From: Prevotellaceae bacterium
GTDB lineage: Bacteria > Bacteroidota > Bacteroidia > Bacteroidales > Bacteroidaceae
Length of the DNA: 64,000 nucleotides
NCBI GenBank assembly: GCA_028723455.1
Contig: JAQYEW010000012.1
Location: 124,001 to 188,000, forward strand
Direction of reading: 5' to 3'
Position numbers and translations under genes: made by a program. Each line of letters opens with the position of its first letter. Position 1 is the first letter of the stretch. Below are positions 13,865-51,498 of the stretch, in pieces. Below the pieces are notes generated by a model, which was given only the letters and a program-made list of their open reading frames with translations, was not told where the DNA came from and did no database searches.

Positions 13865-13884
13865 CCCTTAAACCATCAAGCAAT

Positions 13885-14280: not shown

Positions 14281-14292
14281 AACAAAACAACG

Positions 14293-15582: not shown

Positions 15583-15597
15583 GTCAGATATATTTCG

Positions 15598-15605
15598 TAA
15601 CTTTG
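15598..15605 (+). promoter_or_regulatory. -7 box TAACTTTG upstream of tsaB
   Basis: TAACTTTG, 45 bp upstream of ATG. Confidence 0.5.
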
Positions 15606-15650
15606 CAACGCCGAAAGGAAACAAATAACCAAACCACTAATTAAGAAAAG

Positions 15651-16340: not shown

Positions 16341-16341
16341 C

Positions 16342-16941: not shown

Positions 16942-16942
16942 C

Positions 16943-18250
16943 ATGGCATCATTCATTATCGAGGGCGGTCATCCGCTGAAAGGAGAAATCACACCACAAG
17001 GCGCAAAAAACGAAGCCTTGCAGGTGCTCTGTGCCACATTGCTCACCAGCGAACCCGTACGCATCCAAAATGTACCCAATATTGCCGATGTTAACAACCA
17101 GATTCGTCTTTTGCGCGACATCGGGGTGAAGACCCGCATCAACGGCCCTGGTGATATCACCTTCCAGGCCGACGATGTCAATTTGGAATACCTCCAAAGT
17201 GATGAGTTCCTGTCGCGCTGCGCGCGACTGCGCGGCAGCGTCATGTTCGTTGGCCCTTTATTGGCACGCTTCGGCAAGGCAATGGTAGCAAAGCCCGGAG
17301 GCGACAAAATAGGTCGCCGGAGATTGGATACCCATTTCTTCGGGATGCAGAAATTAGGCGCGTCTTTTATCTATAATAAGGAGAGGCAGGTATTCAATAT
17401 CGAGGCAGACCATCTGAAGGGCTCCTACATGCTTTTGGACGAGGCCAGCGTAACAGGCACGGCCAATATCATCATGGCTGCCGTTATGGCTCAAGGCACA
17501 ACAACAATTTATAACGCCGCCTGCGAACCGTACATTCAGCAGCTATGCAGGATGCTCTGCAACATGGGCGCAAAGATTGAAGGCATAGCCAGCAACCTGC
17601 TTACCATCCATGGCGTGCAGGAACTGCACGGTACGGAACATACCATTCTACCCGATATGATCGAGGTGGGTTCCTTCATTGGTATGGCAGCCCTCTGCGG
17701 CGAAGGCGTACTGATAAAGAACGTGAACTACGAAGAACTTGGTATCATCCCCTACACATTCAAGCGTCTGGGGATTCGCCTGGAACATCGTGGCGACGAC
17801 ATCTTCGTACCCCAGCAGGACCACTACGAAATCGACTCCTTCATTGACGGCAGCTTTATGACCATTGCCGATGCTCCCTGGCCCGGGCTGACGCCCGACC
17901 TGCTGAGCGTACTGCTTGTGGTGAGCACCCAAGCCAAAGGAAGTGTACTCATCCACCAAAAGATGTTCGAGAGCCGCCTGTTCTTTGTTGACAAACTCAT
18001 CGACATGGGTGCCCAGATTATTCTCTGCGACCCGCATCGCGCCGTTGTTGTGGGCCACGACCGCCAGATATGCCTCCACGGAGGGCGCATGAGCAGTCCG
18101 GACATTCGTGCCGGCATTGCCCTGTTGATTGCCGCATTGAGCGCCACAGGAACCAGTGAAATAGAGAACATCGAACAAATCGACCGTGGCTACCAGGACA
18201 TCGAGGGACGACTGAACGCCCTGGGAGCACGCATCACGAGAAAAGAATAA
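16943..18250 (+). CDS. murA: UDP-N-acetylglucosamine 1-carboxyvinyltransferase
   Basis: FIIEGGHPLKGEITPQGAKNEALQVLCATLLT; MurA/EPT family. Confidence 0.93.
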   Translation: MASFIIEGGHPLKGEITPQGAKNEALQVLCATLLTSEPVRIQNVPNIADVNNQIRLLRDIGVKTRINGPGDITFQADDVNLEYLQSDEFLSRCARLRGSVMFVGPLLARFGKAMVAKPGGDKIGRRRLDTHFFGMQKLGASFIYNKERQVFNIEADHLKGSYMLLDEASVTGTANIIMAAVMAQGTTTIYNAACEPYIQQLCRMLCNMGAKIEGIASNLLTIHGVQELHGTEHTILPDMIEVGSFIGMAALCGEGVLIKNVNYEELGIIPYTFKRLGIRLEHRGDDIFVPQQDHYEIDSFIDGSFMTIADAPWPGLTPDLLSVLLVVSTQAKGSVLIHQKMFESRLFFVDKLIDMGAQIILCDPHRAVVVGHDRQICLHGGRMSSPDIRAGIALLIAALSATGTSEIENIEQIDRGYQDIEGRLNALGARITRKE

Positions 18251-18252
18251 GC

Positions 18253-18759
18253 ATGATCAGCGATAGCGAAGTTTATGAAATCGGCCAACTGGGCAAACCG
18301 CACGGAGTGAAGGGTGAAATCAATTTCTCCTTCAATACGGACGTCTGGGATCGCGTAGAGGCCGAATACCTCATTTGCGAGGTGGACGGTATCCTGGTAC
18401 CTTTCTTTTTGGAGGAGTACCGCTTCAGAACCGACCGCAGCGCATTGATAAAATTCCAGGGAATCAACACCCCCGAAGCCGCCAATGAGATGAGCGGCTG
18501 GCGTGTTTTCTTTCCCTACAGCCTGACACCTCAGGATGAGCAGGAAGACTATTCCTGGCAGTATTTCATCGGATTCATGCTCCAGGACGAACACGGACAC
18601 GTGTTGGGCGAAATCTCCGCTGTCGACGAAACGACGACAAACATTCTCTTCGAGGTGGGCAACCTGCTGATTCCCGCCGCCGAGGACTTGATACAAGAAA
18701 TTGACCACGAAGGCCGTGTCATTATCATGCACCTTCCTGAAGGACTTACCGACTTATGA
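18253..18759 (+). CDS. rimM: 16S rRNA processing protein RimM
   Basis: YEIGQLGKPHGVKGEINFSF; PRC-barrel-like C-terminus. Confidence 0.92.
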   Translation: MISDSEVYEIGQLGKPHGVKGEINFSFNTDVWDRVEAEYLICEVDGILVPFFLEEYRFRTDRSALIKFQGINTPEAANEMSGWRVFFPYSLTPQDEQEDYSWQYFIGFMLQDEHGHVLGEISAVDETTTNILFEVGNLLIPAAEDLIQEIDHEGRVIIMHLPEGLTDL

Positions 18760-19913
18760 TTGAACAGAAGAGAAAGAAAATAGCTATTCTGGGCAGCACA
18801 GGAAGTATTGGCACCCAGGCATTAGATGTTATCCGGCAGCATAGTGACCTCTACGAAGCCTATATCCTGACGGCTAACAGCCAAGCCGACCTGCTTATCC
18901 GGCAAGCCCTTGAGTTCCAGCCGGCCGCTGTTGTGATTGCCGATGAAACAAAATACGAAAAGGTACGAGACGCACTCCGTCAGGAGCCCATTCAGGTGTA
19001 TGCCGGCGCTGACGCTTTGTGCGATGTTGCCGGCAATGGCGAGGTAGATGTCGTGCTGACGGCTCTTGTTGGATTCAGCGGACTGCGTCCTACCATCGCT
19101 GCCATCAAGGCAGGCAAGACCATCGCCTTGGCCAATAAAGAAACGCTGGTGGTGGCTGGAGAACTGGTAACCCGCCTGGCGATGGAGCACAAGACCCCCA
19201 TATTGCCTGTGGATAGCGAGCACAGTGCCATCTTCCAAAGCATCATGGGCGAGCACAGCGACATAGAGGAAATCATACTTACCGCTTCCGGCGGACCTTT
19301 CCGCCAAATGTCATTAGAGGAATTGAAGCGCGTTACACCCGCCATGGCTCTCAAACATCCCAACTGGGAAATGGGTGCAAAGATAACCATCGACAGCGCA
19401 TCCATGATGAACAAAGGATTCGAGGTGATTGAAGCCAAGTGGCTGTTTGGCGTAGGACCGGAAAAGATTCGCGTTGTGGTTCACCCTCAAAGCATCATCC
19501 ACAGTGCCGTACAGTTTGCTGACGGAGCAGTGAAAGCCCAACTCGGTGTGCCCGACATGCGCGTTCCCATTCAGTTGGCGCTCAGTTACCCCAAACGCCT
19601 GAAAAGCGACTTCGAACGTCTGGATTGGTACAGGATGGGTAATCTGACCTTTGAAGAACCCGATCTCCAACGCTTCCCTTGCCTGGCATTGGCATTTGAA
19701 TCCATTAGACGCGGAGGCAACGCTCCCTGCGTGGTCAATGCGGCAAACGAGGTTGTCAATCTGGCCTTCCGCCAGGAACGCTGCGCTTTTCCGGACATGC
19801 CACGCATCATCGAAGAGACACTCAACCGTATTCCCTTCGTGCTTCAGCCCAGCCTTGAGGACTACTTGCAGATGGATGCCGAAGCCAGACGCGTCGCCGA
19901 GGAATTACTATAA
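18756..19913 (+). CDS. dxr: 1-deoxy-D-xylulose-5-phosphate reductoisomerase
   Basis: KIAILGSTGSIGTQALDVI, ALANKETLVVAGE, PVDSEHSAIFQ. Confidence 0.97.
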   Translation: MIEQKRKKIAILGSTGSIGTQALDVIRQHSDLYEAYILTANSQADLLIRQALEFQPAAVVIADETKYEKVRDALRQEPIQVYAGADALCDVAGNGEVDVVLTALVGFSGLRPTIAAIKAGKTIALANKETLVVAGELVTRLAMEHKTPILPVDSEHSAIFQSIMGEHSDIEEIILTASGGPFRQMSLEELKRVTPAMALKHPNWEMGAKITIDSASMMNKGFEVIEAKWLFGVGPEKIRVVVHPQSIIHSAVQFADGAVKAQLGVPDMRVPIQLALSYPKRLKSDFERLDWYRMGNLTFEEPDLQRFPCLALAFESIRRGGNAPCVVNAANEVVNLAFRQERCAFPDMPRIIEETLNRIPFVLQPSLEDYLQMDAEARRVAEELL

Positions 19914-29743: not shown

Positions 29744-30223
29744 TTATTCGCGATATAGAAGAGCCACGGCGTGCGCACTGATTCCTTCTTCTCTGCCCGT
29801 GAATCCAAGTTGCTCCGTTGTGGTTGCCTTGATGCTTACATCGTCCACATCAATACCCATTACGTCGGCCAGACAACGCTGCATCTCCGGAATATGGGGC
29901 TTCAGTTTCGGACGTTCCGCACACACCGTAGCGTCGATATTGCTAATGGCATAGCCTTTTTCCGCTACCAGCCGCACCGTGTCGCGCAGCAACACCTTGC
30001 TGTCCACATTGTGATAGCGAGGGTCGGTATCGGGGAACTGATAGCCGATGTCGCGCAAATTCGCTGCTCCCAAGACGGCATCGCAAATGGCGTGTATCAG
30101 CACGTCGGCATCGCTGTAACCCAACAAGCCCAACGTGTGGTCCAAGCGTATGCCACCCAGCCATAGCTCGCGCCCTTCCACCAAGCGGTGGACATCAAAT
30201 CCGTATCCTACGCGTATCTTCAT
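29744..30223 (-). CDS. ispF: 2-C-methyl-D-erythritol 2,4-cyclodiphosphate synthase
   Basis: RVGYGFDVHRLVEGRELWLGGI...GYSDADVLIHAICDA. Confidence 0.97.
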   Translation of the reverse strand: MKIRVGYGFDVHRLVEGRELWLGGIRLDHTLGLLGYSDADVLIHAICDAVLGAANLRDIGYQFPDTDPRYHNVDSKVLLRDTVRLVAEKGYAISNIDATVCAERPKLKPHIPEMQRCLADVMGIDVDDVSIKATTTEQLGFTGREEGISAHAVALLYRE

Positions 30224-31398
30224 CTTCTCCTCCTTCCAAACAAATCCTTCATACCGTCCAGGTCAAAACCCAAAGTGAAACGCATGGTTTGGTCCAAGGG
30301 ATTGGCCGCAGCCGTGCTGAACACATAAGCGGCATCCACACTGAACACACTCATCTTGAAGCCCGCACCAGCCGTAAAATACTTGCGGTTGCCTTTATTC
30401 TCAGCCTCGTGATGGTAGCCCAGACGCACCATGAAGCGGTCGTTGTAGTTATACTCCATGCCCAGGCTCCACTGGATTTCCTGCAACTCTTCCTTAAAGC
30501 CGTTCGGGGCATCGGTAAAACTCTTGAAGATACCGCTGATGGGCGAAATGTCGTAATAGTCCTTCTGAACACGGGCGTCATAAACATCAGGGTCCTCGCC
30601 TTCCTCCTGTTTGGGATAGGTGGGCACCAACAGCTTATTGGCATCCGCAGCGATGCTGAGGCGGTTGTATTCGTTGAAGGGAATGGTCATGTTCATACCC
30701 AGGCGCAGATTCGTGGGAATAAAGTCGGAACGGTCATAACCCCCAAAACTGATCTTGGAACCAATGTTGTTGATGTTCAATCCCCAGGCGAAACTGCACT
30801 CGCGCTGACCCATCATGAAATAACCCAGCCGGTACATTGAGATGTCAGCGGCAAAGGCCTTGCCGGGTGAGGTTTCGGCCGTGTAGTCGTAGGTAATGTC
30901 AGAATAGATGAAACGCATTCCCACACCCATAGAGAAACGCTCGCTCAACATACGGCTGTAAGCAACGTCGACGGACATTTCATAGGGGTTGATGGTCATT
31001 GCGTCCTCGGACAGACTGGTCATCACCTCGCCCAAAGAGAAGTAGCGCAAAGAAGCGGACAGCGCATTATAATCACCCAAGCGATAAAAACCCGCCAGAT
31101 TCACCAGGTTGATGTCGTTAACCAACTTACGCAACCAGGGAGTGTAGCTGGCACTCACCCCTGCACGCGCAATGTTAAAGGGATACTTCGAGGGATTCCA
31201 ATATTGGGCGTTTGCGTCAGCCTCCGTAGCCACACCCACATCACCCATAGCACCGGCCCTGGCATCGGGTGCAATGGCCAGCGAAGTAACGCCGTAATTG
31301 ACGGGGTTGAACATGGTCTGCTTATCCTGTGCACGCAGGGTCAAAGGCAGGCAAGCCATCAACAGGGCGAAGAAAATTATTTGCTTTGTCTTTTTCAT
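30220..31398 (-). CDS. porV: type IX secretion outer membrane protein PorV
   Basis: DARAGAMGDVGVATEADANAQYWNPSKYPF; adjacent to porU. Confidence 0.92.
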   Translation of the reverse strand: MKKTKQIIFFALLMACLPLTLRAQDKQTMFNPVNYGVTSLAIAPDARAGAMGDVGVATEADANAQYWNPSKYPFNIARAGVSASYTPWLRKLVNDINLVNLAGFYRLGDYNALSASLRYFSLGEVMTSLSEDAMTINPYEMSVDVAYSRMLSERFSMGVGMRFIYSDITYDYTAETSPGKAFAADISMYRLGYFMMGQRECSFAWGLNINNIGSKISFGGYDRSDFIPTNLRLGMNMTIPFNEYNRLSIAADANKLLVPTYPKQEEGEDPDVYDARVQKDYYDISPISGIFKSFTDAPNGFKEELQEIQWSLGMEYNYNDRFMVRLGYHHEAENKGNRKYFTAGAGFKMSVFSVDAAYVFSTAAANPLDQTMRFTLGFDLDGMKDLFGRRRR

Positions 31399-31423
31399 AC
31401 CTTATTTATAACGTAGCTAAGGA

Positions 31424-34400
31424 TTATTTATTGCCGGTGAGAATGATTTTCTGCGTCCTGCTGACCTCCTCGCTATCCTGACACCTCAGCGTAACGCGAT
31501 ACAGATAGATGCCCGTACCCAGCCTGCCACCGCTGTTGTTGGACAGGTTCCAAGGGATTCGTATCAGATTGGGGGCCGAAGGCGTTGCCTCCTCGTGGAC
31601 AAACATACGCTGCCCGCTAAAGTCAAACACTTCCAAACGCACGTTCACCGCACTGCCCTCGCGGTCATGGGCTACGAGGAAAATGGTCGAGGTAACGGCC
31701 GGATTCTGCGTTGCCTGCACGCTCACCAAGTTGGGTGACAGCGAACTGTCAACAACAAAATTCAATGTCTGGCTGCTGGTGTTGTTCAGCACGTCCCAAG
31801 CACGGAAACGAAGCGTATGGCTGCCGTCGGCAAGGGTCGGAATACTGAACATCACGCTGCCCTTCGTGTAATCGCCAAATTCGCTCTGGTAATAATCATC
31901 CAAGACATAAGTAGTGGCGGGATTGTCGTCAATGCACAACTGCAGATTATGTCCCAACCCGTTACCAAAATAATTGATACCGCTGGAGTCGCTCAGCTGA
32001 GCCAAGAAACAGGGCGTAGCGTTCACGCGGCCTCCGTCCTCAAAGCCCTCCGCATTCAGGTACATGAAGATGTTGGGACCCACAGTGTCCGTGAGTTCCC
32101 CCTGTTCTCCGATGGTAAACTGCTCGTTGTAGCCATTGGCCTCAACGCTGCGGTCGTTACTGATGGCATAGAAAACGACACGTCCGCTTTGGTTGCTGTA
32201 GTTAATGTCTTTGGGAAGCACAAATTTCAGTTGGAAACGCCCCTGACGCAACGAATCCTGACCGTTATAAAGCACCTTGTCGCGGTTTGTGAAGACGAAG
32301 GCGGTGTCGCTCTTCGCATTGTTCAAACAGGTAATCTGTGCCTCGCTATCATAGACACGTGCGCTCAGCACTCCGTTCATGCCACTAAGTATCGTCCCCC
32401 CGGCATCGCTTACGTGTCCGCTCATGCGCACCTCTGCGCCAGCCTTGAGCTGTATGTTCCCGCCAACCGCCTTGCCATTGATGCTATCCAACACCACACG
32501 GTTTGTGGGAGCACCGAAACGTAAGGCCGGATCGCCCAGGAGCGCGTAATGGAGTTTGTTGACCGACGTGTCGTAATCAATGGCAGCCACCTTGGCCAAA
32601 CGATGGGCATCGCCCACTGTGTTGCGACGACCCTGGGCATCGGTGGCAAAGAGATAGTGCATGAACCATTGGTTCACAGGCAGATTATAACGCGCATAGA
32701 CCGTGCGCGCCGCACTGAAGAAAGCCACGGCAGTACCATTCCCGTTCAGGACAGCCGCCTCGCCCAAATTATCCTGCAAACCGTCAAAAGGCAGGACATC
32801 ACAAGCCGCGGCCACCCACAGAGGCAGGTTGTTCCCCTTAAAGGCGTGCATATCAGCCAGGGTAACGAGCTGTTCATGGCTCATCAACTGTGCCGAAGCG
32901 TGGCCCGTATAGTTCACGACCAGCGCACCCTCCTTCATTTGCTGTTCGATGATTTGCCGGACGGCAGGATAGCTGTTATGTGTTCCCGTAGCCACACGAG
33001 GATAAATATCAGCCATCAGTTTGCGCACCTCCATCTCAGGATAAGCGGCCCGCACACGGTTAGCGACATTATCTGCCATATCCAGATGCAGATTCTCGTC
33101 GCCATCGTCGCCGATGAAGCTCACCACATTCTTCCAGTTACCTGCATACTGGTTAGTCAGATGGGCAATGCTCTTATCCACCATGATTTTTGCTTCGCTC
33201 TCCGTGGTTACAGGAAAACGGCCGATACCCAAATCCACCTTATCGCGCGTCAGTTGACGACCCTCGCCGTCATCCAGCAAGCCGAAGTAATCCTCCATGA
33301 CGTAACTGTTAATGTCGCTCAGTGAGTTCTCACTCTCAAAGGCGAGCAGATAATCACGCTGATCATTTCTACGCCACGAGGCCGTAAGCATACGATTGTC
33401 CCACGCTGCGTCTCCGAAAAGCAAGAGGTACTTTGGTGCGTCAGCATCACTCTTGGCACGGTCATAGAGCATCTTCATCAAACGGCGATAGGCCGTTGCA
33501 TCAGGCGTGCCGCTGCTGAACTCGTTATAGATCTGGTCAGCGCGCACAACCGCAACACGCAATCCGTCATACTGCGTATGAGCATCTGCCAAACGCTGGG
33601 CTTGAGACAACAGTTTTCCGCTCTCGGGAATGATGATGACCATATCCACAGCCTCCAAGGCATGGAGGTTCTGGTTCTCAATATGCCCCACAACCGTAGG
33701 CGTCGGGTATTGCTTCCCATGCTCAAAAGCCACATAACGCTCCGAGGCATCGTCAACGTTCAGGCGGAAAACTCCGCCTTGCTGCGTTCCCTGAACAATG
33801 GCTCCCGCACGCTGCGGCGAAGGAATACGCATGGCAACGAGGTCCGACCCCACGAGTTCAAAGGCGGCAGGCGATGCGTTGCGTCCGCCAAAAGCCACCC
33901 AACCGTTCTGAGGTACCAATTTGGAGGTATAGTGAAGGGCAAGGTAATCCAAATGCGCCTCGTTACCAGGCGTGCTTGCAAGGCGCACGTTCCAGTTATC
34001 GCCATCGGCTAAGCCGGAAACATCGTAAATACGCTGACCCGACACGCCACGCACATACTCGCCCAATGCACCGAGACGAAGCGTGCCGGATTGGTCCGTG
34101 CCATTGACACGGACGCTCAATTCTGTGGTCGAGGAGGCCGCAGCACTGAACACCACAGTCAAGCGAGCATCCGAGACATAACCAGGCGTGTGCAAGGTGT
34201 AACTGCGCGTGTTGGAGGAGGCGAAATCCACGGCGTCATAGAGGTTACGCCCACCATGATAATAGGCGTAATCATCCTTCTCATAGAGCGTATGAAGGGA
34301 CTGCGACGTGAAAGTCATTTGCGTTTCTCCAGCGTAGGCGGCTTCCGTAGCGGCTGTGTTGTCATCCGCTTCCTCTGTCAGGAAATAACAGCCGGCATTG

Positions 34401-35125
34401 GCATAAGGATTGAAGACACGGGTATTACCCTCCCAATAAACAAGGCCATTGGCCCAAAAAAGAAAATCAGAACCGCGTTTGTAGAGAGGCACTTCCTGGA
34501 GGTCATCAAATTCATCGGCAGGATTGCTTACCTCGCTCAGACGGTAACCGCCATAGCCATACAGATGTACCTTGTCGGGATTGCTGAATCCCATACGGAT
34601 AAGGGCACTGCGTCCAAGGCTATAGATACCGTCCTGACTGACACTGATTTTCACCCAACGCCCCGTTGACAACTTACTTTGTCGTGTATAGCGTTCGGCG
34701 GACTTCACGACAGCCATCCTGCGCACCGATTTCTTCTTGGCAACCGGTGAAATCACAATCTTTGCACTCAACAGCTTGCGGTAAACATTACCATGGCGCA
34801 CAACGGGACAAAAGGCAATGTCCAACATACCCACCTTGCGGCTTACACCTACATGCGTCTCGATACGCAGCGTGTCCGCCACCTCGTCCGCAAAGCGTTG
34901 GACAACGGCCAACTCGCTTGCCGAGAGGTTTCCCCATTCGGGGAACAATACTTGAACACGATAGTCATAAGCCCGGTAGTCGCTCTCCAAGGGCACCACC
35001 TCGCGATATACAGGCAAAAGGCTGTCCGAGCGCAAGGCATCCCAATCCAGACGGGTGAAACCATCACCAGCCCAAAGCGGGAATGCCACAAGCAACAATA
35101 AAAGGGTTAAGAGTGTATGTTTCAT
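31424..35125 (-). CDS. porU: type IX secretion sortase PorU (C25-like)
   Basis: 1233 aa; C25 Cys/His context VVNYTGHASAQLMSHE...VAAACDVLPFDG; C-terminal FlgD-like/CTD region. Confidence 0.93.
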   Translation of the reverse strand: MKHTLLTLLLLLVAFPLWAGDGFTRLDWDALRSDSLLPVYREVVPLESDYRAYDYRVQVLFPEWGNLSASELAVVQRFADEVADTLRIETHVGVSRKVGMLDIAFCPVVRHGNVYRKLLSAKIVISPVAKKKSVRRMAVVKSAERYTRQSKLSTGRWVKISVSQDGIYSLGRSALIRMGFSNPDKVHLYGYGGYRLSEVSNPADEFDDLQEVPLYKRGSDFLFWANGLVYWEGNTRVFNPYANAGCYFLTEEADDNTAATEAAYAGETQMTFTSQSLHTLYEKDDYAYYHGGRNLYDAVDFASSNTRSYTLHTPGYVSDARLTVVFSAAASSTTELSVRVNGTDQSGTLRLGALGEYVRGVSGQRIYDVSGLADGDNWNVRLASTPGNEAHLDYLALHYTSKLVPQNGWVAFGGRNASPAAFELVGSDLVAMRIPSPQRAGAIVQGTQQGGVFRLNVDDASERYVAFEHGKQYPTPTVVGHIENQNLHALEAVDMVIIIPESGKLLSQAQRLADAHTQYDGLRVAVVRADQIYNEFSSGTPDATAYRRLMKMLYDRAKSDADAPKYLLLFGDAAWDNRMLTASWRRNDQRDYLLAFESENSLSDINSYVMEDYFGLLDDGEGRQLTRDKVDLGIGRFPVTTESEAKIMVDKSIAHLTNQYAGNWKNVVSFIGDDGDENLHLDMADNVANRVRAAYPEMEVRKLMADIYPRVATGTHNSYPAVRQIIEQQMKEGALVVNYTGHASAQLMSHEQLVTLADMHAFKGNNLPLWVAAACDVLPFDGLQDNLGEAAVLNGNGTAVAFFSAARTVYARYNLPVNQWFMHYLFATDAQGRRNTVGDAHRLAKVAAIDYDTSVNKLHYALLGDPALRFGAPTNRVVLDSINGKAVGGNIQLKAGAEVRMSGHVSDAGGTILSGMNGVLSARVYDSEAQITCLNNAKSDTAFVFTNRDKVLYNGQDSLRQGRFQLKFVLPKDINYSNQSGRVVFYAISNDRSVEANGYNEQFTIGEQGELTDTVGPNIFMYLNAEGFEDGGRVNATPCFLAQLSDSSGINYFGNGLGHNLQLCIDDNPATTYVLDDYYQSEFGDYTKGSVMFSIPTLADGSHTLRFRAWDVLNNTSSQTLNFVVDSSLSPNLVSVQATQNPAVTSTIFLVAHDREGSAVNVRLEVFDFSGQRMFVHEEATPSAPNLIRIPWNLSNNSGGRLGTGIYLYRVTLRCQDSEEVSRTQKIILTGNK

Positions 35126-38765: not shown

Positions 38766-38906
38766 TGTTTGTTTTTGTTGTTGTTACTACTAATTATTTT
38801 CTTTCGTTTAATTCCGTGATTCCCTAACCGTTGCGCCCGACCAAAGACACAACTATTAACACACGGTTTGAGGAGTTTCTGACGCTCCTCGATAATAATC
38901 GGCTTG

Positions 38907-41276: not shown

Positions 41277-41411
41277 TGCCTATCTTTGCTTTATTCGTAC
41301 GACAGGTCGCTTACTTTCAACCGCACTGCTATGACGAGCGACAGTCCGTGCTGAACGAAGAATACAGAGAACCAAATACCCAAAGCGGTGCGAAACAAAA
41401 ATCTAATCACT

Positions 41412-41819
41412 ATGTCATATCCCATTGCACAGATCGAAGGTATCGGAGAAGTTTACGCCGAGAAATTGAAGGCCGCAGGCATCAAAACAGTTGAAGAATT
41501 ATTGGAAAAGTGTGCCGCCCCCAAGGGTCGCGCGGCATTGGAAGAGGCCACAGGCATCAGCCACAAACTGATTCTGAAGTGGACGAACCATGCCGACCTG
41601 ATGCGTATCAACGGTGTCGGCGGTCAGTTTGCCGAATTGCTGGAGGGAGCCGGCGTAGATACCATCAAGGAACTGCGTAACAGAAACGCCGAGAACCTGC
41701 ATGCAAAACTCGCCGAGGTCAACGATGCCAAGAATCTTGTGAACCGCGTTCCCGCCCTGAGCGAAGTAGAGCGCATGATAGCCCAGGCCAAGGAGTTGGA
41801 ACCGGTCATCACTTACTAA
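41412..41819 (+). CDS. DUF4332 helix-hairpin-helix protein
   Basis: IAQIEGIGEVYAEKLKAAGIKTVEELLEK...INGVGGQFAELLEGAGVDTIKEL. Confidence 0.88.
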   Translation: MSYPIAQIEGIGEVYAEKLKAAGIKTVEELLEKCAAPKGRAALEEATGISHKLILKWTNHADLMRINGVGGQFAELLEGAGVDTIKELRNRNAENLHAKLAEVNDAKNLVNRVPALSEVERMIAQAKELEPVITY

Positions 41820-41934: not shown

Positions 41935-42002
41935 AAAAAAACATCGGGTAATTTTGATGAAAATAAATATATAATTGGATCAAAATTACCCGATGTTTTT
42001 TT
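41935..42002. terminator. convergent bidirectional terminator, 24-bp perfect arms
   Basis: AAAAAAACATCGGGTAATTTTGAT (41935-41958) / ATCAAAATTACCCGATGTTTTTTT (41979-42002). Confidence 0.8.
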
Positions 42003-42010: not shown

Positions 42011-44224
42011 TTAGCGGCGTTTTTCACGCTGTTGAATGGCTTTTTGGAATTGCTCGAAATTGATGTTGGGCATATCCTCTCTCAACACCTTTTTCAGATA
42101 TTGAACCGTGGCCTCATCCATGCGTCCGCTCTCTTGCCAGGCATACAGGATGCTCTTGAGGAAGGGCGTCAGGGGAACGTTGGCCTGCTCATACAGTTCC
42201 ATGATATCCGCACGCCGGTGCAGGGGTATGTCGGCATACACGCGCTCCGTAAGGGGCTTTCCACCCAGGTTGCCCAACGACTTCTGCGCCACCTGACCCG
42301 TCTTTCCGAACATGGGATAACGGCCGTCGCGGTCGGTAACGGCACGGGGCAAGATGGCGGCATCATAGTATCGGGCAAAAAGCGTGGTGTCCGGAATGGA
42401 CTTGAGCCGACGCTCCCATGCCGTTACATTCCGCATGCGCGTATCATAGAACTCCCAATGCGGAATCTCCTGCTCGATGTTATTCAACGCACCTGCCAGG
42501 CTCACAAAACTACCGGCCAGTTTCACCATCAGTTCGTCGTTGTCCGTCATGTCAAAGGCCGCCCATGCCACACCGTCCTGCACGCCAAAGGCATCCATCG
42601 GGCGGTTGGGAACAAGGACGATATAACTTTGAATCGTGTCGCCATACTGCGGACGCGGTACAGGCAGTTTGCCGTAGACCATCTGCTTCGCCGTGTCCAC
42701 CTTCATCGTGGCGCCCGTCGCATCAGGAGCCAGCGCAAGATAGGTGCGGCCGGCCTCCTGACGTTCCAAACGGATAAAGCCGGTATGGCTCATTCCCGTC
42801 AGACTCAGGCGGGCTTGTTCATCCGGCAACGAGGCCGAATAGTAATCGGGATGCCGGACTTCCGGACCCAACTTAAGCCCCCATTCCTGACGGTCCAGGA
42901 CAAGGGTATCCAATAGAGGCATCAGGGTGAAGCTGCCATAATCGCCGCCATCCTCGGTAGGATGGGCTGCCTGAACGCCTTGCAGGGTGCCTGCATGCCG
43001 ACGGGGAGTCCAAACGACCATGGGGTTAGGTTCAAAGACACGTCCGTCGCCCAAACCTCGCAGAGCGCGTTGCATCCCGAAGCGCGTCTGACGCTTCTTG
43101 AGATACGCCAACACACGGTTCCATTGCTCGTAGGGAGGCATTTCATTAGGCAAGCCAAACTGACGCTTGTCGCGCTCGTTCATCATCAGCTTCGCCATGA
43201 CCTGCTTGCCTTTGGCATAAAAAATGATACGCAGATTGGCGCCCAAGGGCAGAAAATCACTCAGGCGGTTCACGTGCTCGTCGCTCAGATTGTTGAAGCC
43301 TACGATGGAAATCAAGCGATGCAAACTTTCAAGGGAGGTGAAATAAACGTCCGCCTTCGCCCCTTGCCGCATAGCCTCCATCCCGTGATTCAGGAGGTTG
43401 TCCAGCGTTTGCGACGCAGACTCCAAGGGGAAACCATAGCTGTCCGGACTTTGGCCGGCCAAGGTCCACAGGCGTTCGTCTTCCTGGTCGAAGACGGCAC
43501 GCAATTCGTTCCCCCCAATAAAGGATTCCAGGCGACTGCCCTCGCCCACGACTTGCAGCAGGACATGGAGGCGCGCCACCTGACGCATCAGGGAAAAACT
43601 CTCCTTTCCGTCCACAGGTCCGGTGAAGAAAGCCTGCGCCCATTGCCGTCCATCATACCAAGAATCGGGGCTGAACGAAAGCAACTGCTCCTCTTCGCTT
43701 GTCAGCGGAGCCTGCCAAGGCTCGGCAATCGGCTGTGCAGGCACTTCTTTCTTTGCCAGCCCAGCCTGAAAAGCACGTGCGGCCATGCCGCCGTCCGCGG
43801 CAGATGCCGTATGCAGGCGTACCGAGGCACCGTTGAGCATCGCAGCGTAAGTCTCCTGGAAACGCACTCCCAACGTCTCCTGCAACTGCGCCTGATAGAC
43901 ATTCAGGGAACGGTGCAAGGCTTTCTTTCGGATAATCTGCTCCACCGCCTTGCGCAGCTGTCTGCCTCGTTTGGAGAGCGGCTGGCCGGACAGCGACCGA
44001 AGAATCGTCCCGGCAGGCTCGAGCAAGGAAACATCGCTCATGTCGCGACTCACTTGCAATACATAAACGGGCTGATAGCCCTCAGGGGACAGTCCCCCAA
44101 GCGTGTCGCCCATGCCCCATGTGTATGCCCCCCAAGTACCCGTCTGCTGCCCTTGTTGCGCTTGGGCAAAAAAGGCGCAGAACATGAGGGAAAGGCTTAG
44201 AAATATCGTTTTGATTGTTGTCAT
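42011..44224 (-). CDS. secreted protein: degenerate histidine-acid-phosphatase-like region fused to truncated GH92-like domain
   Basis: signal peptide; HAP-like FLPLGANLRIIFYAKGKQVMAKLMMNERD; GH92-like GGDYGSFTLMPLL, VKLAGSFVSLAGALNNIEQEIPHWEF, DRDGRYPMFGK. Confidence 0.6.
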   Translation of the reverse strand: MTTIKTIFLSLSLMFCAFFAQAQQGQQTGTWGAYTWGMGDTLGGLSPEGYQPVYVLQVSRDMSDVSLLEPAGTILRSLSGQPLSKRGRQLRKAVEQIIRKKALHRSLNVYQAQLQETLGVRFQETYAAMLNGASVRLHTASAADGGMAARAFQAGLAKKEVPAQPIAEPWQAPLTSEEEQLLSFSPDSWYDGRQWAQAFFTGPVDGKESFSLMRQVARLHVLLQVVGEGSRLESFIGGNELRAVFDQEDERLWTLAGQSPDSYGFPLESASQTLDNLLNHGMEAMRQGAKADVYFTSLESLHRLISIVGFNNLSDEHVNRLSDFLPLGANLRIIFYAKGKQVMAKLMMNERDKRQFGLPNEMPPYEQWNRVLAYLKKRQTRFGMQRALRGLGDGRVFEPNPMVVWTPRRHAGTLQGVQAAHPTEDGGDYGSFTLMPLLDTLVLDRQEWGLKLGPEVRHPDYYSASLPDEQARLSLTGMSHTGFIRLERQEAGRTYLALAPDATGATMKVDTAKQMVYGKLPVPRPQYGDTIQSYIVLVPNRPMDAFGVQDGVAWAAFDMTDNDELMVKLAGSFVSLAGALNNIEQEIPHWEFYDTRMRNVTAWERRLKSIPDTTLFARYYDAAILPRAVTDRDGRYPMFGKTGQVAQKSLGNLGGKPLTERVYADIPLHRRADIMELYEQANVPLTPFLKSILYAWQESGRMDEATVQYLKKVLREDMPNINFEQFQKAIQQREKRR

Positions 44225-44245
44225 GTAAGAAAAACAGTTTTCAAA

Positions 44246-45799
44246 TCAGTATCTGACGCCCATGGTCAGCCCCAGAAGCGTAAGGTTCATGTGGGACTGG
44301 GCACGCAGGTAATCCACACTCGCCTTAATATAATAAGGTATAGGACGCTTGCCCAAGCACAGCCGGTCGGTCCAGGTCAGACGCAACTGGCAGCGGCCAT
44401 AGTCGGCGGAATAATAAGGACTGTCCGGAAGCAGCACCTGCTTGGCATACTCCGTGGTGGGGTCCGCCAGATTCATCTTGTACTCCAGGCTGCGATGCCA
44501 ATCCAACTCCATATCCAGCCACAGACGTTTCTTCCACAGGCTCACGCCCCCTTGGAGCGACAGTTCCAGACTGCGATTGTCAATCCGGGACAGGGGCAGG
44601 AGGTGCTTTTGCGTAAGGTCGTTGTACAGCAAGCCCAAACCCACATAATGACGCGCGCGCTCACCCTCCAGGAAGTGGAGGCGATAGTCGGCACGCAGCA
44701 TCACATCCGTTTGCTGGTATCGCTTGCGGAATGTGAACAGCGTTTCCCAGCTTTGCGTGTCATAGCCCGTTTGCGAATCACGCACAATCTGCAACTGCTG
44801 GATATGTTCATCGGCATAGGCCTGTCGGGCATTGAAGCGCGCCGAGAGGCTGTGCATCAGATGTCCGTGCGTAAGACGGTGTTCGCTGGCAAACAGATAG
44901 TCATAGGTGAAGAAACGGCCGGGCTGACGCATATTGGTCTCATAGATACGCTCGTTGGCACGACCGACGCCGAGGGTGGTCAGCTGATTGTAACGCACCG
45001 ACTTGAAGCCGTAGCTCAGCCGCGCCTGAAAATCATGGTTTACGTACTCACGCATGAATCCGCCATAGCCGCCCTTACTGCCCTTGACCGCCTCCAGACC
45101 AGTCATCTCGTAGTACATCAGATTGGCATCGGTCTGCACGGTGGTCATGTTGGGAATCTTTTCCTTGCGACGATCGTAATGCGCACTCAAGCCCAGGGTG
45201 TGGCGACCCAAACTGTGGGTAACGCTGGGTGTCAGCACGTATTGCATCAGTTGCGCACGGCTGCGTGGGTCGCGCAAGCGGCTCAGGTCGCCAGCAGTAT
45301 AATCCAAGCGCAGACCAACGCGCCAAGGACCCAGCCTGCGGGTACCCACGGCTCCCGTCAGTTCAAACAGTTGGCTGTCATAACTGCCACGCACACTGCT
45401 GCCCGAAAGAAAAGGGTTGCCGGCATAGGGACGCCATTGGTCCGCCCAAGCGCGTTGCTTGGTATGGTTCATATTAAAGGCAAAACGGCCATAGACATGC
45501 AAAAGACTACCGACACGCTGGTAACGCTCCGTCTCAAAATTGACATTGGAACGGAAGGTTCCCTCCTGCACACGGAGATAATCGCCCTGACGACGCTGTG
45601 CGCCAATGGCAGCCCAACCACAGTTTTCGGCACTGTCCACCCCTAATGCGGCGGCGTTGTTGGTGGTATGCCACAGCTGCGTCGCGTCCAGATAGCGGCT
45701 ACGAGCTTCTTCGGCTACGGAGAGGCTGTCCTGTGCCCTGATGCCAAGAGAGACAAAAAGGGACAAAGAGAAAAGAAGGGTATTATTTAGCTTCGTCAT
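44246..45799 (-). CDS. DUF6850-like outer membrane beta-barrel protein
   Basis: signal peptide; alternating beta-strand pattern to aromatic-containing C-terminus (LGLTMGVRY). Confidence 0.6.
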   Translation of the reverse strand: MTKLNNTLLFSLSLFVSLGIRAQDSLSVAEEARSRYLDATQLWHTTNNAAALGVDSAENCGWAAIGAQRRQGDYLRVQEGTFRSNVNFETERYQRVGSLLHVYGRFAFNMNHTKQRAWADQWRPYAGNPFLSGSSVRGSYDSQLFELTGAVGTRRLGPWRVGLRLDYTAGDLSRLRDPRSRAQLMQYVLTPSVTHSLGRHTLGLSAHYDRRKEKIPNMTTVQTDANLMYYEMTGLEAVKGSKGGYGGFMREYVNHDFQARLSYGFKSVRYNQLTTLGVGRANERIYETNMRQPGRFFTYDYLFASEHRLTHGHLMHSLSARFNARQAYADEHIQQLQIVRDSQTGYDTQSWETLFTFRKRYQQTDVMLRADYRLHFLEGERARHYVGLGLLYNDLTQKHLLPLSRIDNRSLELSLQGGVSLWKKRLWLDMELDWHRSLEYKMNLADPTTEYAKQVLLPDSPYYSADYGRCQLRLTWTDRLCLGKRPIPYYIKASVDYLRAQSHMNLTLLGLTMGVRY

Positions 45800-47006
45800 A
45801 AACTCGGATTCCTATGGAGGTTGACACTTGAAAATCGGCAGAGGAATTATTCGTATCGCTCAGCAGTTTTTGTCCGCTACGCCCCACGCCCGCCGTACGC
45901 CTGTAAACGATTTCCCCCGTCCATCCGCTCACGGCTTGGATATGTGTATAACCCGCGTCAATATCGTTGCCCAGACGCTTGCTCTCCACATCTACGCCCG
46001 TACTCTTTTGGCGTAAGATGTCCACGGCATCCACAACCTCGCGCTTTGGCAAAACAAGCCATTGTGTGCCGCTGGACTTGCCATAGGCATAAGTGCGCGC
46101 ATAAGTGCTGACATCGGCATGGGTGCGGAAAATAACGAGGCCACAGGGACCGCTCTGCACCAGATTCATGTACGAGAGCGAGGCATTGGGCGTGAACAAC
46201 AATTCAAGGGCAGGCACGTCGGGATTATTTACAAAGATACCGCTGGCGTTCTTCGCTTCAAAGTCCGCATGAGAAAGGTCATGCTCCATATCGTTGTTGG
46301 GTGTGTGGTCCGTGGCACTGTTCACCAGCAGGACGGTGCCGCCAGGTGCAACAGGGCATGGCGCAGACGCTGGGATACGGAACACCTGTTTCAGAAGTAC
46401 AACGCTGTCGGCAAAGGCCGTGTGCAGATTATCCAAGGTGTAGGCGGGTGTACTCTCGCTCTCCACAAGACCCAGATAAAGCCCACTGACATCCACGGAA
46501 TCGTCGGATTGGTTGTACAGTTCCACAAACTTTCCCGCCAGATAGTTTCTGACGCCCTTGGAGCCTGCATAGAACACCTTGCCGATGACAATGTCGCCAT
46601 TCTTCGAGAGCGTCAAAGCCAAGTCCGTCTGCTCCTCTGCGCCAATCATCACGCTCAGCCTTTGCCCTACCGCCACGCCACCACGTGTAGCCGTAGGATC
46701 GCCCGTCAACTGGCGATAGGCTTCATTCTCCAGGCTGAGCGAGGCACTGATGTCATAGATGCCGGGGGTCAGGTTTGAAAAGACAGCCACTCCCCCAGCA
46801 TCCGTTTGGGCCTCATATTTGTGGGTGGATGTAGAAAGTGTAACCGTGCGTTGGGCAACCAAAGCGGCGGACTGATCCTTGTCCAAGCCCTCAGGTGCCA
46901 AAAGGCGGACACGATGGCTCACGGTACCCGTGGCATCGTCCATGTCCACACAGGACACCGGCATCAGGCACACGATGCAAAGAAGCGTAAAAATATAGGT
47001 TCTCAT
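45783..47006 (-). CDS. DUF4876 family lipoprotein (paralogue B)
   Basis: lipobox LMPVSC; KVFYAGSKGVRNYLAGKFVELYNQSDDSVDVSGLYLGLVES; DTNNSSADF. Confidence 0.78.
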   Translation of the reverse strand: MRTYIFTLLCIVCLMPVSCVDMDDATGTVSHRVRLLAPEGLDKDQSAALVAQRTVTLSTSTHKYEAQTDAGGVAVFSNLTPGIYDISASLSLENEAYRQLTGDPTATRGGVAVGQRLSVMIGAEEQTDLALTLSKNGDIVIGKVFYAGSKGVRNYLAGKFVELYNQSDDSVDVSGLYLGLVESESTPAYTLDNLHTAFADSVVLLKQVFRIPASAPCPVAPGGTVLLVNSATDHTPNNDMEHDLSHADFEAKNASGIFVNNPDVPALELLFTPNASLSYMNLVQSGPCGLVIFRTHADVSTYARTYAYGKSSGTQWLVLPKREVVDAVDILRQKSTGVDVESKRLGNDIDAGYTHIQAVSGWTGEIVYRRTAGVGRSGQKLLSDTNNSSADFQVSTSIGIRVYDEAK

Positions 47007-47017
47007 TTTTTTTGCGA

Positions 47018-49795
47018 TTAGAAGTTAAACGACAATTCCGCACCAAACGAGAAAGTGCCCGTATTGCGCTGCGTCAGCGTCCCACTGAGGTTGCCCGTCA
47101 GGAAAGGTTCGTAGAAAAGGGCGTTATTCACGTAAAACGAGAGCGAGCCAATGCGTCCCAGTTCCTTTGTCAGACGTGCCTGCAGGTTCCAGGTTACGGG
47201 TTGCTTGCTTGGGCGTGAGTCTGTGTAACGTTTCTCAAGGTCGGTAATATGAACGCTCTGCTGCCCTACAGGCGCAGTAGCATAGTAACGCCCATCCATA
47301 CCCAGATACCCGCTTAATTGCTCCGGCAAGAGCGTGTGATATTGGAGCTTGTCATCAATCCACCCGATCGGGCTTTTGTCCGCAGTATGACTCCACGAAC
47401 TGCTGTGCCAGATAGCCTGGGCCGTGAACGAAGCCACCATGCGCAGACGGGGAATGTTCGTTACCACACGCAGGGTGGTAAGCAAGCGACGATAGCGACT
47501 GAAGTCTCCGCCGTTTGGATAAACGACCTTGAAGGGCGTTGTGTTAAAGACGCTGTACTCCGCAGGCAGAATGCTGGCACGGGGCGATTCGGCATTAACG
47601 TCCGTGCTCCAGGTTTTAGTCTCGCTCCAGGCACCAGACACATAAAGGCGCGTATTCAGGTGCGGCAACTCTCCCAAGTCGAAATCAGCCTCGATACCAC
47701 GATTCACGCTGGTATTCGTGTTGCCGATGGCCCCTGTGGTCATGAACACCAGAAGCTGACGTGCGGGGTTGCCCCAATCAATGGCTGTGGGGCCCGTAGG
47801 GTTGATGATCAAACCTTGTGCCTGGGAATAATAATTATAGGTATAGGTAGCGTACCGGGTGAGCGAACCAAAACCGTTCGGAGTCCGGTCGTGATAAGCC
47901 ACCAGACTAAGGTGGCGTTGTCCGGGCAACTTCACGTCGATGCCCGCCTCAATCTTCGTGGTCGTGGCGTTTTTCAGGTCCTTGCTCTTTCGGACATCAT
48001 AGACCTGGGTGTGATACCACACCAACTGGCCGGCGGTATTCGTCTGCGGCAGATAGTTGGCAACCTCCCGGTCGTCGTATTTCTTGTCCGGATAGAGGTA
48101 ATCCAAACCGGGTGATTTGGAATTCAAGCCAATACCACCACGCACATCAAGCCACTTCGTCAGGCTCAGCATGACGTTCAAACGGGGCGAGAGAGCCGTT
48201 GTTGCGACCTCGCTGAAAGGCTGCAACGAGGTAAAACGCAAACCCATGTTGACGTTCAAACGACGCACACGATCCAGCTGCCATGTGAAATTATCCTCAG
48301 CAAAGAGTGATAACCGATGCAAACCCGGCACGTCGCTGAAGGCACGAGGGCGTCCGCTGCTGTTGGGCTTCAACGGCAACGAATCGTTGGCATTGAAAAA
48401 GCCACGTCCCGAATTCCAATCGTAATTGTATTCCGCACCCACCTTGAAGCTCTGCTGTGTCTTGCCATGACGGAAGAAGAAACTGTCCGTCAGTTTGGCA
48501 AAGACATTGCCGGGTCGGCTCTGCGTCGTTCCTTGGGCGCGATAGGCCTTTGTTTGCCATGAAACAGGATAATAACCCGTCTGCATGGCTGTAAGGATAG
48601 GCAGGAAACCCGTTGAATTGGCAACCCACGTATCCTGATAGCTCTCGCTTTGACCGTAGTTCAAGCCCAATGTGTAGCGCAAGCTACGCGCCAAGGGAAG
48701 CCCCAACTGCACACGTCCGTTGTGGGTCAGTTGAAGGTTCATGGTCGTGCTCTTTGTCTCCGTACCGTCAATCCTTGCGTCGGGGTCGTTACCGCTCCAA
48801 TCCTGTGCATACAGGAAACGCAACTTGGTGTCCGTATGCCATCTGCGGCTAATGTCCTTGGCATAACCCACAGAGCCGGTCCAACGCCCAAAAGAACGTG
48901 TCTTCTGACGAGGGTCTCCCCACGCCTTGGCAAAGTCGCCACTGAAGTTTAACACGCCCGCACGGCGTAAGTTCAAGCCCTTGCTTACGCTGTAGTTCTG
49001 GAGCTCAGGCGTAACCTTACCCCTCACCTGCCAGGGCGTAACACCCACTTTGGAATGAACCATCACCAATCCCGAACTCAAATCACCGTATTCAGCCGAA
49101 GGGATGCCACGCACCACCTCCACCTCCTGAATATCGTCGGCGGAAATCTGACGCAGATCGGTACCCACAAAGGCCGTGCTTGAGAAGCCCCCTTGGGTCA
49201 TCATCCCATTGTTGGACATGGGCATCCCGTCCACCACAATACTGGAACCAAAGGCGTTCGTATTGTTGTTGACCAAACTACGCAGCTGCAAATTGCTTTG
49301 TTGCGTAAAGTCGGTATTGCCCATCTGCTGACCAGGCAAGAGCTGCATCACATCGGCCAGGGAAACGGCCTGCAAATGGTCCAGGGCTTGTCGGCCGATC
49401 ACACTGCTCGTGGAGGCTCCACTGGTACGCTGCCGTGCCGTTACGTTGACCTCCTTCAGCGCCAGGGTCTGCTGTTGCATCTTGTACTTCAGACTCAAAT
49501 CGGCCTCCACTCGTACTTGCGTGCGGACACCCTCGTATCCCACATAATTGATACGCAGCGTATATACGCCCTTGGGCACACGCTGTATCTCCGCCAGACC
49601 GTTGACATCCGTAACAGCGGTCATTCCGCCCGGCTGCAACTGCACTACGGCCATCACGATGGGTTCCTGATCCGTCTTGTCCGTAACCTCCACACGTAGC
49701 GTAGAACCTTTGGCCTGAGCCATAACGAAAGTTGCCGACAGTACCATCAGCACCATCAGCAACCCACGTAAAAGATATTGAATATGTCGAAACAT
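47018..49795 (-). CDS. TonB-dependent receptor with carboxypeptidase-regulatory-like N-terminal domain
   Basis: STLRVEVTDKTDQEPIVMAVVQL, plug domain SSIVVDGMPMSNNGMM...IQEVEVVRGIPSAEYGDLSSG, C-terminal barrel ending SFGAELSFNF. Confidence 0.95.
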   Translation of the reverse strand: MFRHIQYLLRGLLMVLMVLSATFVMAQAKGSTLRVEVTDKTDQEPIVMAVVQLQPGGMTAVTDVNGLAEIQRVPKGVYTLRINYVGYEGVRTQVRVEADLSLKYKMQQQTLALKEVNVTARQRTSGASTSSVIGRQALDHLQAVSLADVMQLLPGQQMGNTDFTQQSNLQLRSLVNNNTNAFGSSIVVDGMPMSNNGMMTQGGFSSTAFVGTDLRQISADDIQEVEVVRGIPSAEYGDLSSGLVMVHSKVGVTPWQVRGKVTPELQNYSVSKGLNLRRAGVLNFSGDFAKAWGDPRQKTRSFGRWTGSVGYAKDISRRWHTDTKLRFLYAQDWSGNDPDARIDGTETKSTTMNLQLTHNGRVQLGLPLARSLRYTLGLNYGQSESYQDTWVANSTGFLPILTAMQTGYYPVSWQTKAYRAQGTTQSRPGNVFAKLTDSFFFRHGKTQQSFKVGAEYNYDWNSGRGFFNANDSLPLKPNSSGRPRAFSDVPGLHRLSLFAEDNFTWQLDRVRRLNVNMGLRFTSLQPFSEVATTALSPRLNVMLSLTKWLDVRGGIGLNSKSPGLDYLYPDKKYDDREVANYLPQTNTAGQLVWYHTQVYDVRKSKDLKNATTTKIEAGIDVKLPGQRHLSLVAYHDRTPNGFGSLTRYATYTYNYYSQAQGLIINPTGPTAIDWGNPARQLLVFMTTGAIGNTNTSVNRGIEADFDLGELPHLNTRLYVSGAWSETKTWSTDVNAESPRASILPAEYSVFNTTPFKVVYPNGGDFSRYRRLLTTLRVVTNIPRLRMVASFTAQAIWHSSSWSHTADKSPIGWIDDKLQYHTLLPEQLSGYLGMDGRYYATAPVGQQSVHITDLEKRYTDSRPSKQPVTWNLQARLTKELGRIGSLSFYVNNALFYEPFLTGNLSGTLTQRNTGTFSFGAELSFNF

Positions 49796-49807
49796 AGCGT
49801 TGTTATT

Positions 49808-51454
49808 TTACTTCACAACAAACGTGCGGCCGCCCCTCACGTAGATGCCACGCGTAGGCTGTCCCGAGAGTTTGCGTCCACACAAGTCATAAACAGCCTC
49901 GTCGTGAATCTTACCCGCAGGAACCTCCCCAATGTCCGTTGTTATGATGGAAGGAACGTCAGCCGTAAACTTTATCGTCGCAAGGTCCGTGTAACCCGTA
50001 GCGCCATGTGTTGGGGCAATGGCATTGGCAACCGCATTCGTTACGCTCAAGTAAAAACGGTCCTCACCAGGCAAGGTCAAACTGCTGTACACTGGAGCAA
50101 AAGCCTCGTCGCGGACAAAACGCAGATTACCCGCCTCGTTTGCAAAACGGTAAAGCTGACGGTTTTTCAGCGTGGTTGTTACAACACCGTTCTGGAAACG
50201 CTCATCAGTATCCGTCGCCCAGTTGCAAATACCCGATGTCTTCACCGTAGGCTGTGCAGGCGTCGTGTAAAGGACATGCTCCCCTGGCTCGCCCACAAGA
50301 AGACAAGGGCCGGACTGCTTGATGATACTGTAAGAAAGGTAGGTGTTATACGTGAGGTCAGTATTCTTGGAATTACCGTTTATATACATGATGCTAAGGT
50401 GGCTGTCGCGCTTTCCTGTCAGACTTGATGTAGTAAAGAAGGGGAGAACGCCCGATTCGGGAATAACGACCTGGATAGGCTCACCCACAACCGCATCCGT
50501 CTCGAACTGACCCAAGCCATAGCCGATGGCAGAGGCAAAGTCCTGAGAAGAGTTATTCGTATCCATCAATGTCAGGGCACCGTCGTTGTTCACAGCCGTG
50601 CGACGGTACAGCACCTCGCCGTTTTTCCCGGTTACGGCCTGTACCGAAGCATAGCCGGCATCCAAAGAGGCCGCAAAACGCTTGCGAAGGGGGTCGGCTT
50701 GCAGGCTCTCGTCCGATTGTTTCTTCACCTTCAGCAAATCCACGCAGTCCAAGGCGTAATAGGTGTTCAGAGGCAGATACCTATTACCGGTCTCCTTGCC
50801 ATTGGCAAACACAAGGTCAGTTTCCAAGTTGAACTTCCCCTCCAACTTCGCATCCAAGATCATCAACGAACAATCGCCGCCTTGCAGCATATTAACAACA
50901 TTATCATTTGCCTTACCCGTATTGAGATAAGTGTAAACCACCTCCATGTTAGGCACGGCCTCGTTATCAGCCACAGCACCCGTAGGATCTCCGAACTCAA
51001 AACCGGCCTGACTCAAGTCATGGCCTACCTCGGCCAATGGGGTATGGTCAATCGCCGTGTTGGCAATGACAACACTGTTACGTGCAGGAAGCACGAATGC
51101 CGCACTTACAGGAATACGGAACAGTTGCTTGACAGCAACCTTATTGCTCAGCGCAGCATTTCCCACGAAAATGCCCGTGGCATCTATATTTGCCGTATAT
51201 GCACCCGTAGAGGCTTCGCTCTCCACCAAGGCAATGTACAGACCCGAGAGGTCAAGGTCTTTGTCCGAATTGTTAAACAACTCAATAAACTGACCTTTTG
51301 AGTAGGTTTTCGTACCTCCCTTCTCCGTACTTCCCGCATAAAAAACCTTACTGATAACCAAATCTCCCGAGCTGATTGCGCTGGCGGGAAGAGATAACAA
51401 ACAAAAAACGGCTGCCAATACAAGGCATGAATAACGAGTAGAAATTTTATTCAT
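49808..51454 (-). CDS. DUF4876-like secreted protein (paralogue A) with C-terminal sorting-like tail
   Basis: signal peptide; VISKVFYAGSTEKGGTKTYSKGQFIELFNNSDKDLDLSGLYIALVES; tail AVYDLCGRKLSGQPTRGIYVRGGRTFVVK; start placed at MNKISTRYS. Confidence 0.75.
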   Translation of the reverse strand: MNKISTRYSCLVLAAVFCLLSLPASAISSGDLVISKVFYAGSTEKGGTKTYSKGQFIELFNNSDKDLDLSGLYIALVESEASTGAYTANIDATGIFVGNAALSNKVAVKQLFRIPVSAAFVLPARNSVVIANTAIDHTPLAEVGHDLSQAGFEFGDPTGAVADNEAVPNMEVVYTYLNTGKANDNVVNMLQGGDCSLMILDAKLEGKFNLETDLVFANGKETGNRYLPLNTYYALDCVDLLKVKKQSDESLQADPLRKRFAASLDAGYASVQAVTGKNGEVLYRRTAVNNDGALTLMDTNNSSQDFASAIGYGLGQFETDAVVGEPIQVVIPESGVLPFFTTSSLTGKRDSHLSIMYINGNSKNTDLTYNTYLSYSIIKQSGPCLLVGEPGEHVLYTTPAQPTVKTSGICNWATDTDERFQNGVVTTTLKNRQLYRFANEAGNLRFVRDEAFAPVYSSLTLPGEDRFYLSVTNAVANAIAPTHGATGYTDLATIKFTADVPSIITTDIGEVPAGKIHDEAVYDLCGRKLSGQPTRGIYVRGGRTFVVK

Positions 51455-51490: not shown

Positions 51491-51498
51491 CAAAGGTA
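51491..51498 (-). promoter_or_regulatory. -7 box TACCTTTG of DUF4876/TBDR operon
   Basis: CAAAGGTA on plus strand about 36 nt upstream of ATG; weak -33. Confidence 0.65.

Follow-up and report, generated by a model that had tools for sequence, protein, structure and literature searches.

Relation to described outer-membrane uptake loci

In the gut, rumen and mouth, the growth of Bacteroidota is decided by their uptake of iron and metals, and homologues of DUF4876 proteins and TonB-dependent receptors (TBDRs) count among the genes with the strongest iron induction in these bacteria. The loci PG1019-PG1022 of Porphyromonas gingivalis and BT1938-39 and BT3625-33 of Bacteroides thetaiotaomicron have been published as iron-regulated outer-membrane transport loci, with iron starvation inducing PG1019-22 by 20.8-214.5-fold, BT3625-33 by 37-128-fold and BT1933-39 more weakly (PMC10434189). 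Additionally, PG1019 is top-induced in periodontal pockets (PMC5807917), and a P. gingivalis DUF4876 gene shows hemin-dependent expression (PMC10470040). We analysed a five-gene operon, P0001-P0005, in a 64,000-nucleotide stretch of a Prevotellaceae bacterium (contig JAQYEW010000012.1, positions 124,001 to 188,000; hereafter the window), encoding two DUF4876 proteins, a TBDR, a DUF6850 protein and a pseudo-enzyme. We read it, at about even confidence, as an unusual variant of a module that takes up a metal-containing ligand (haem, or chelated or peptide-bound iron or copper) at the cell surface in a TonB-dependent manner. Four new findings are the strongest: the obligate triad of TBDR, DUF4876 and DUF6850, the linkage to HMA and FMN_bind proteins in the window's subclade, the probable display of DUF4876-A (P0001) through the type IX secretion system (T9SS), and a doubly dead P0005.

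The operon is like the P. gingivalis and B. thetaiotaomicron loci in DUF4876 and the TonB receptor, a likeness that covers these two families, but two DUF4876 genes flank its receptor, PepSY, ABC and HmuY genes are missing, and its payload is a pseudo-enzyme. BT3625-33 as annotated contains a DUF4857/PepSY/ABC set, as do DUF6850 modules of our analysis. The preliminary description, made from the sequence alone, had proposed an undescribed system, which is contradicted by the published iron regulation of related DUF4876/TBDR loci (PMC10434189) and by the existing structure of BT_1938 (4Q1Z). The core module is known, widespread, iron-linked and mechanistically uncharacterised, and the window copy is a variant of it; our literature search turned up neither a function for DUF4876 or DUF6850 nor a paper on DUF6850 or a functional paper on 4Q1Z.

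Other described systems share parts of this arrangement. The XusAB(C) xenosiderophore system (BT2063-2065) works alike, with a surface lipoprotein, a TBDR, a PepSY partner and iron induction (PMC13142918, PMC10434189), whereas XusB is a DUF4374 beta-propeller and the three published Xus genes include neither DUF6850 nor a T9SS-type DUF4876. As for the Hmu system (HmuY/HmuR), HmuY occurs in one class of DUF4876/DUF6850 loci, but the window operon has no HmuY, CobN or ExbB-type genes. The copper transporter OprC would share TonB-dependent metal import, although the window receptor clade does not have a conserved Cys/Met plug site. Finally, SusCD polysaccharide utilisation loci (PULs) resemble the window in combining a TonB receptor with a surface lipoprotein and in a variable hydrolase payload. 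We rejected this identity because there is no SusC and no SusD: the receptor P0002 is not of the SusC/RagA type, giving no match to TIGR04056 (NCBIfam), and a SusD, a sensor and an intact enzyme are all missing from the five genes, as the preliminary description had observed in setting the operon apart from a canonical PUL.

An obligate module of TBDR, DUF4876 and DUF6850

Of the 62 DUF6850 loci from the family, 61 contain DUF4876 and 60 a TBDR, the exceptions being the odd locus L112 and L104, which lies at a contig edge. At the class level, DUF6850 and DUF4876 occur in the identical 8 of 246 genomes, and every DUF6850 gene (13/13) adjoins a DUF4876 gene; the chance of this genome overlap is ~3e-15 under independence, although genomes are not independent. 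A scan with the window's DUF6850 subclade gave 80 named loci, mostly from Prevotella of the rumen, gut and mouth, and the core linkage is also found in nearly all of 79 named loci. TBDR, DUF4876 and DUF6850 are an obligate module, and in the window operon the three are adjacent on one strand. The preliminary description had left the conservation of this linkage to be checked in relatives; it is near-absolute, so an absence of linkage cannot be held against the proposed system. DUF4876 and DUF6850 are obligate partners beside a TonB receptor, and our analysis offers metal or haem as a ligand class that can be tested.

The surroundings of the core are more variable. In about 10 of the 62 loci a short lipoprotein lies between the TBDR and DUF6850, and a full DUF4876 then follows. 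The genes after the core differ by subclade, comprising C25-like/HEAT and C1-like proteins with HmuY, or M16, or an ABC/PepSY/DUF4857 set, or a beta-propeller with M16 ('C1-like' is our reading of the sequence, to which Pfam gave no match), and metzincins are also found among these tail genes. The window's own genome contains three modules, namely the window, L005 of the beta-propeller/M16 class and L006 of the C25/HmuY class, in the last of which HmuY accompanies C25-like proteins. The L006 HmuY gene (303-686, minus strand) is short, with 127 aa and ~57 of 157 HmuY positions matched, and may be truncated or frameshifted in the assembly.

Metal-protein neighbours and a possible metal or haem ligand

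Among the exchangeable payloads of the module that we identified is a metal-binding HMA protein, found in loci of the subclade to which the window belongs. This exported double-HMA protein (PF00403, 105 bits; CxxC) is encoded within the operon or next to it in 40 of the 79 subclade loci, which include near-duplicate metagenome-assembled genomes and do not amount to 40 independent cases. Its gene stands ahead of the receptor in 21 loci and after DUF6850 in 19, with gaps of mostly 0-50 bp, and directly after DUF6850 in L138, the locus with the closest TBDR (64% identity). On the tree, the well-supported branches require this trait to have changed 11 times or more, so the link was repeatedly gained or lost. 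Family-wide the double-HMA protein is rare (5 of 301 genomes), with four of the five genomes also having DUF6850 and two having the genes adjacent. Exported FMN_bind proteins are found by 16 of the 79 loci and by modules of two distant subclades (L092; L114/L116), L092 having HMA besides FMN_bind. PepSY_TM follows the core in L081 and L179, and the PepSY/DUF4857/ABC set characterises another locus class.

Metal or haem would be our best guess for the ligand, made for the window by homology only, because of these HMA, FMN_bind and PepSY partners, the HmuY of the sister locus and the published iron and hemin regulation. The preliminary description had spoken of an unknown ligand, with mannan and phytate limitation among the conditions to be tried; with HMA, FMN_bind, PepSY and HmuY linked to the module, the field narrows to metal or haem and away from these two. 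Several findings weigh against our reading. HMA, FMN_bind, PepSY and HmuY genes are absent from the window operon itself, and no double-HMA protein of this type (F3) is found in the window's genome, which is 88% complete. No conserved Fe- or Cu-binding motif is present, as the Met-rich plug loop of the receptor is variable and the DUF4876-B family has no invariant His or Met. Furthermore, the window DUF6850 branches off basally in its subclade, on a long branch without resolution, and because of this deep placement the transfer of a ligand by homology is weak for the window.

Peptidases are also about as frequent as metal proteins among the module's neighbours, which bears on a second explanation, in which the module imports peptides from secreted proteases as nutrients and the metals are incidental. 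C25-like, C1-like, M16, DUF4953 metzincin, S46 or S8 peptidases often lie up- or downstream, as that explanation would have it, yet the window operon has no peptidase, HMA and FMN_bind proteins are no peptide-uptake genes, and the module family includes HmuY and iron regulation (PMC10434189). Proteolysis of metalloproteins would account for peptidases and metal partners alike, and we consider peptide uptake unlikely.

Three further loci combine these elements in other ways. L092 (G281, 43-18977) is a mixed glycan/metal island with an exported Cys/His-rich HMA protein, a SusC-like receptor, SusD, FMN_bind, a TBDR/DUF6850/DUF4876/M16 set, GH3 and a convergent intact phosphatase-GH92 gene. In L236 (G122, 9088-10689, minus strand) one open frame joins a peptidase M16 C-terminal domain to HMA, which elsewhere are separate partners of the module. 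Near the genes for a FecCD permease and its binding protein, Prevotella communis (L234) has both an orphan HMA gene and another gene whose product ends in a T9SS-like tail.

The two DUF4876 proteins

P0003 (DUF4876-B; 45783-47006, minus strand) encodes 407 aa matching DUF4876 with 89.6 bits (Pfam) and has a lipobox with Cys19, followed by VDMDD, which places acidic residues at +3, +5 and +6. Acidic residues after the lipoprotein Cys are a trait of surface lipoproteins in Bacteroidota, and lipoprotein-like members of the DUF4876 family have an acidic residue at +3, +5 and +6 in 42-52% of cases. Judged by these features, P0003 is a surface lipoprotein with an export signal resembling the lipoprotein export signal (LES). 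Its AlphaFold (AF2) model reaches a pLDDT of 90 and matches the fold of 4Q1Z, the DUF4876 protein BT_1938 (Foldseek E 1.6e-22; profile match 111.6 bits; 19% identity), and P0003 is 51-59% identical to its best subclade relatives.

P0001 (DUF4876-A; 49808-51454, minus strand) is an exported LTD/DUF4876 protein of 548 aa (PF16215, 68.6 bits). Its orthologues, with 30-37% identity, usually lie directly after DUF6850, and among the loci examined a DUF4876-A upstream of the receptor is found only in the window. The C-terminal ~42 aa comprise a TT/DI cleavage-like site, YDLCGR, RGIY and a basic end, and on inspection agree with the short T9SS sorting signals described for Prevotella intermedia (PMC11969387); the same tail type is present in 11 of 11 orthologues looked at. 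The T9SS machinery is represented by SprA in the genome and by PorU (NF033707, 1002 bits) and PorV (NF033710, 501 bits) at window positions 30220-35125 on the minus strand, ~15 kb from the operon. P0001 gave no match to TIGR04183, the generic T9SS model, and the tail assignment for this reason stays a good inference; surface display of DUF4876-A by T9SS is probable. The preliminary description had called this protein soluble and exported; export stands, but with a tail that fits the published short sorting signal (PMC11969387) the protein would be more than soluble. In four loci of rumen Prevotella (L164, L165, L172 and L180) the gene after DUF6850, a member of the T9SS-tail family F4, has a dockerin-like repeat, DVNGDGxVDVADIS, at its end in place of that tail.

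The receptor and the predicted DUF6850 barrel

P0002 (47018-49795, minus strand) is a TBDR of 925 aa with CarbopepD_reg and plug domains (Pfam), 60-64% identical to its best subclade relatives and without a match in a PDB sequence search. A copper site in its Met-rich plug loop (VDGMPMSNNGMM) was considered and rejected, as the loop is not conserved: across the window receptor clade M, I and V are exchanged and the trailing residues vary, leaving no conserved Cys/Met site.

P0004 (44246-45799, minus strand) matches DUF6850 with 257 bits (Pfam), is ~46% identical to its best subclade relative and has no PDB sequence match. Its model (pLDDT 91, pTM 0.86), with 18 strands counted from the DSSP output, predicts an 18-stranded outer-membrane barrel without a TonB plug. 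The triplet D177-P178-R179 is invariant in 27 diverse DUF6850 members and, from our reading of the strand order, may lie at an extracellular turn. Foldseek was unspecific, with best TM-scores of 0.3-0.46, and no fold could be assigned since all TM-scores listed were below 0.5. These results also bear on the idea that DUF6850 is an exporter, releasing a carrier or spent ligand in a two-way outer-membrane machine. The exporter AlgE is among the low-score matches, besides Occ porins and TBDR barrels, and 18 predicted strands without a plug would suit such a role, but scores of this size do not assign a fold and no carrier biosynthesis gene lies nearby, which makes an exporter quite unlikely.

P0005 derives from a phosphatase-mannosidase fusion

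P0005 (42011-44224, minus strand) encodes an exported protein of 737 aa, in which Pfam recognises GH92N and then a GH92 catalytic domain that breaks off after ~72 of its 464 positions. Its full-length relatives (frames of 1078-1151 aa) are fusions of a histidine phosphatase and a GH92 mannosidase, with His_Phos_2 found in an intact relative. In an alignment with these relatives, the catalytic His of RHG is replaced by Asp in P0005, and GHD is lost. By this comparison it is a doubly dead derivative of the histidine-phosphatase/GH92 fusion, and the earlier label of pseudo-phosphatase-GH92 was correct.

We rejected mannan or phytate uptake as deduced from P0005, since both active sites are lost and the gene is not shared by other loci. 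A broader form of this idea, uptake of a phosphoglycan or mannan that P0005 would bind, draws on the retained GH92 N-domain and His-phosphatase-like region, on the intact phosphatase-GH92 gene convergent to the DUF6850 module in L092 and on GH127 after the module in four loci. The loss of both active sites counts against it as well, as do a TBDR that is not of SusC type, the missing SusD and the fact that none of the other modules examined has a P0005-like gene in its operon, and we judge glycan uptake very unlikely.

A further question is whether P0005 has any role. Searches of 139 genus and 301 family genomes gave no orthologue nearer than the full-length fusion relatives, and no P0005-like gene was found in the operons or neighbourhoods of 79 related modules, so that among the loci examined it is an operon member only in the window. 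This rarity, the lost catalytic sites, the shortened GH92 and the different or missing payloads of other modules would fit a decaying passenger without a role, with the functional unit being the four-gene module only. Against this, the frame is open for 737 codons, the signal peptide is retained, GC3 (0.665) agrees with that of the operon and a terminator stands immediately behind the stop codon. The passenger status of P0005 is a serious possibility, somewhat short of even, and is compatible with metal uptake by the rest of the operon.

Proposed working of the module

In the metal-uptake reading, DUF4876-A would be secreted by T9SS and stay on the surface as a scavenger, passing ligand to the surface lipoprotein DUF4876-B above the TonB receptor, which would take it in with TonB energy. 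As obligate partner barrel, DUF6850 may steady the receptor-lipoprotein complex or let small released material through, and P0005 may act as a non-catalytic accessory derived from the phosphatase-mannosidase fusion. In sister loci, peptidases would release the ligand from proteins. The preliminary description had suggested an outer-membrane capture and import machine with non-catalytic accessory domains, and our results support this outline. A bolder version is a two-barrel metal-scavenging machine, in which the TonB receptor, the plugless 18-strand DUF6850 and the DUF4876 lipoprotein are fed by T9SS-displayed DUF4876 and by exchangeable payloads, including dead enzymes as ligand binders; we put it forward tentatively, as a scheme that is probably not correct in full.

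Operon signals and surroundings

The five genes form one operon of consecutive minus-strand genes spaced by 12, 11, -17 and 21 bp, and all five N-termini carry export signals by eye, in agreement with the preliminary description, whose gene coordinates, strands and gaps also proved exact. A plausible operon promoter is the Bacteroidota-type -7 box TACCTTTG at 51491-51498 on the minus strand, 36 bp ahead of the P0001 ATG and with TTG ~20 bp upstream. Counting both strands, the window has 38 copies of the bare TAnnTTTG motif, and because it is so common, position is the sole support for this promoter. A bidirectional terminator, readable from either side, lies at about 41935-42002 as a perfect 23-bp inverted repeat with A/T runs at its flanks; the repeat lies no more than 10 bp past the P0005 stop codon and is common to the convergent DUF4332 gene at 41388-41819 (plus strand). 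The upstream neighbours are a divergent FKBP gene and rpoC, and the GC and GC3 values of P0001-P0005 are close to those of rpoC, with P0004 and P0005 slightly higher. No Rfam element was found in the operon; elsewhere in the window, an L13-Bacteroidia ribosomal-protein leader (RF03127) lies at 38818-38890 on the minus strand, ahead of rplM-rpsI.

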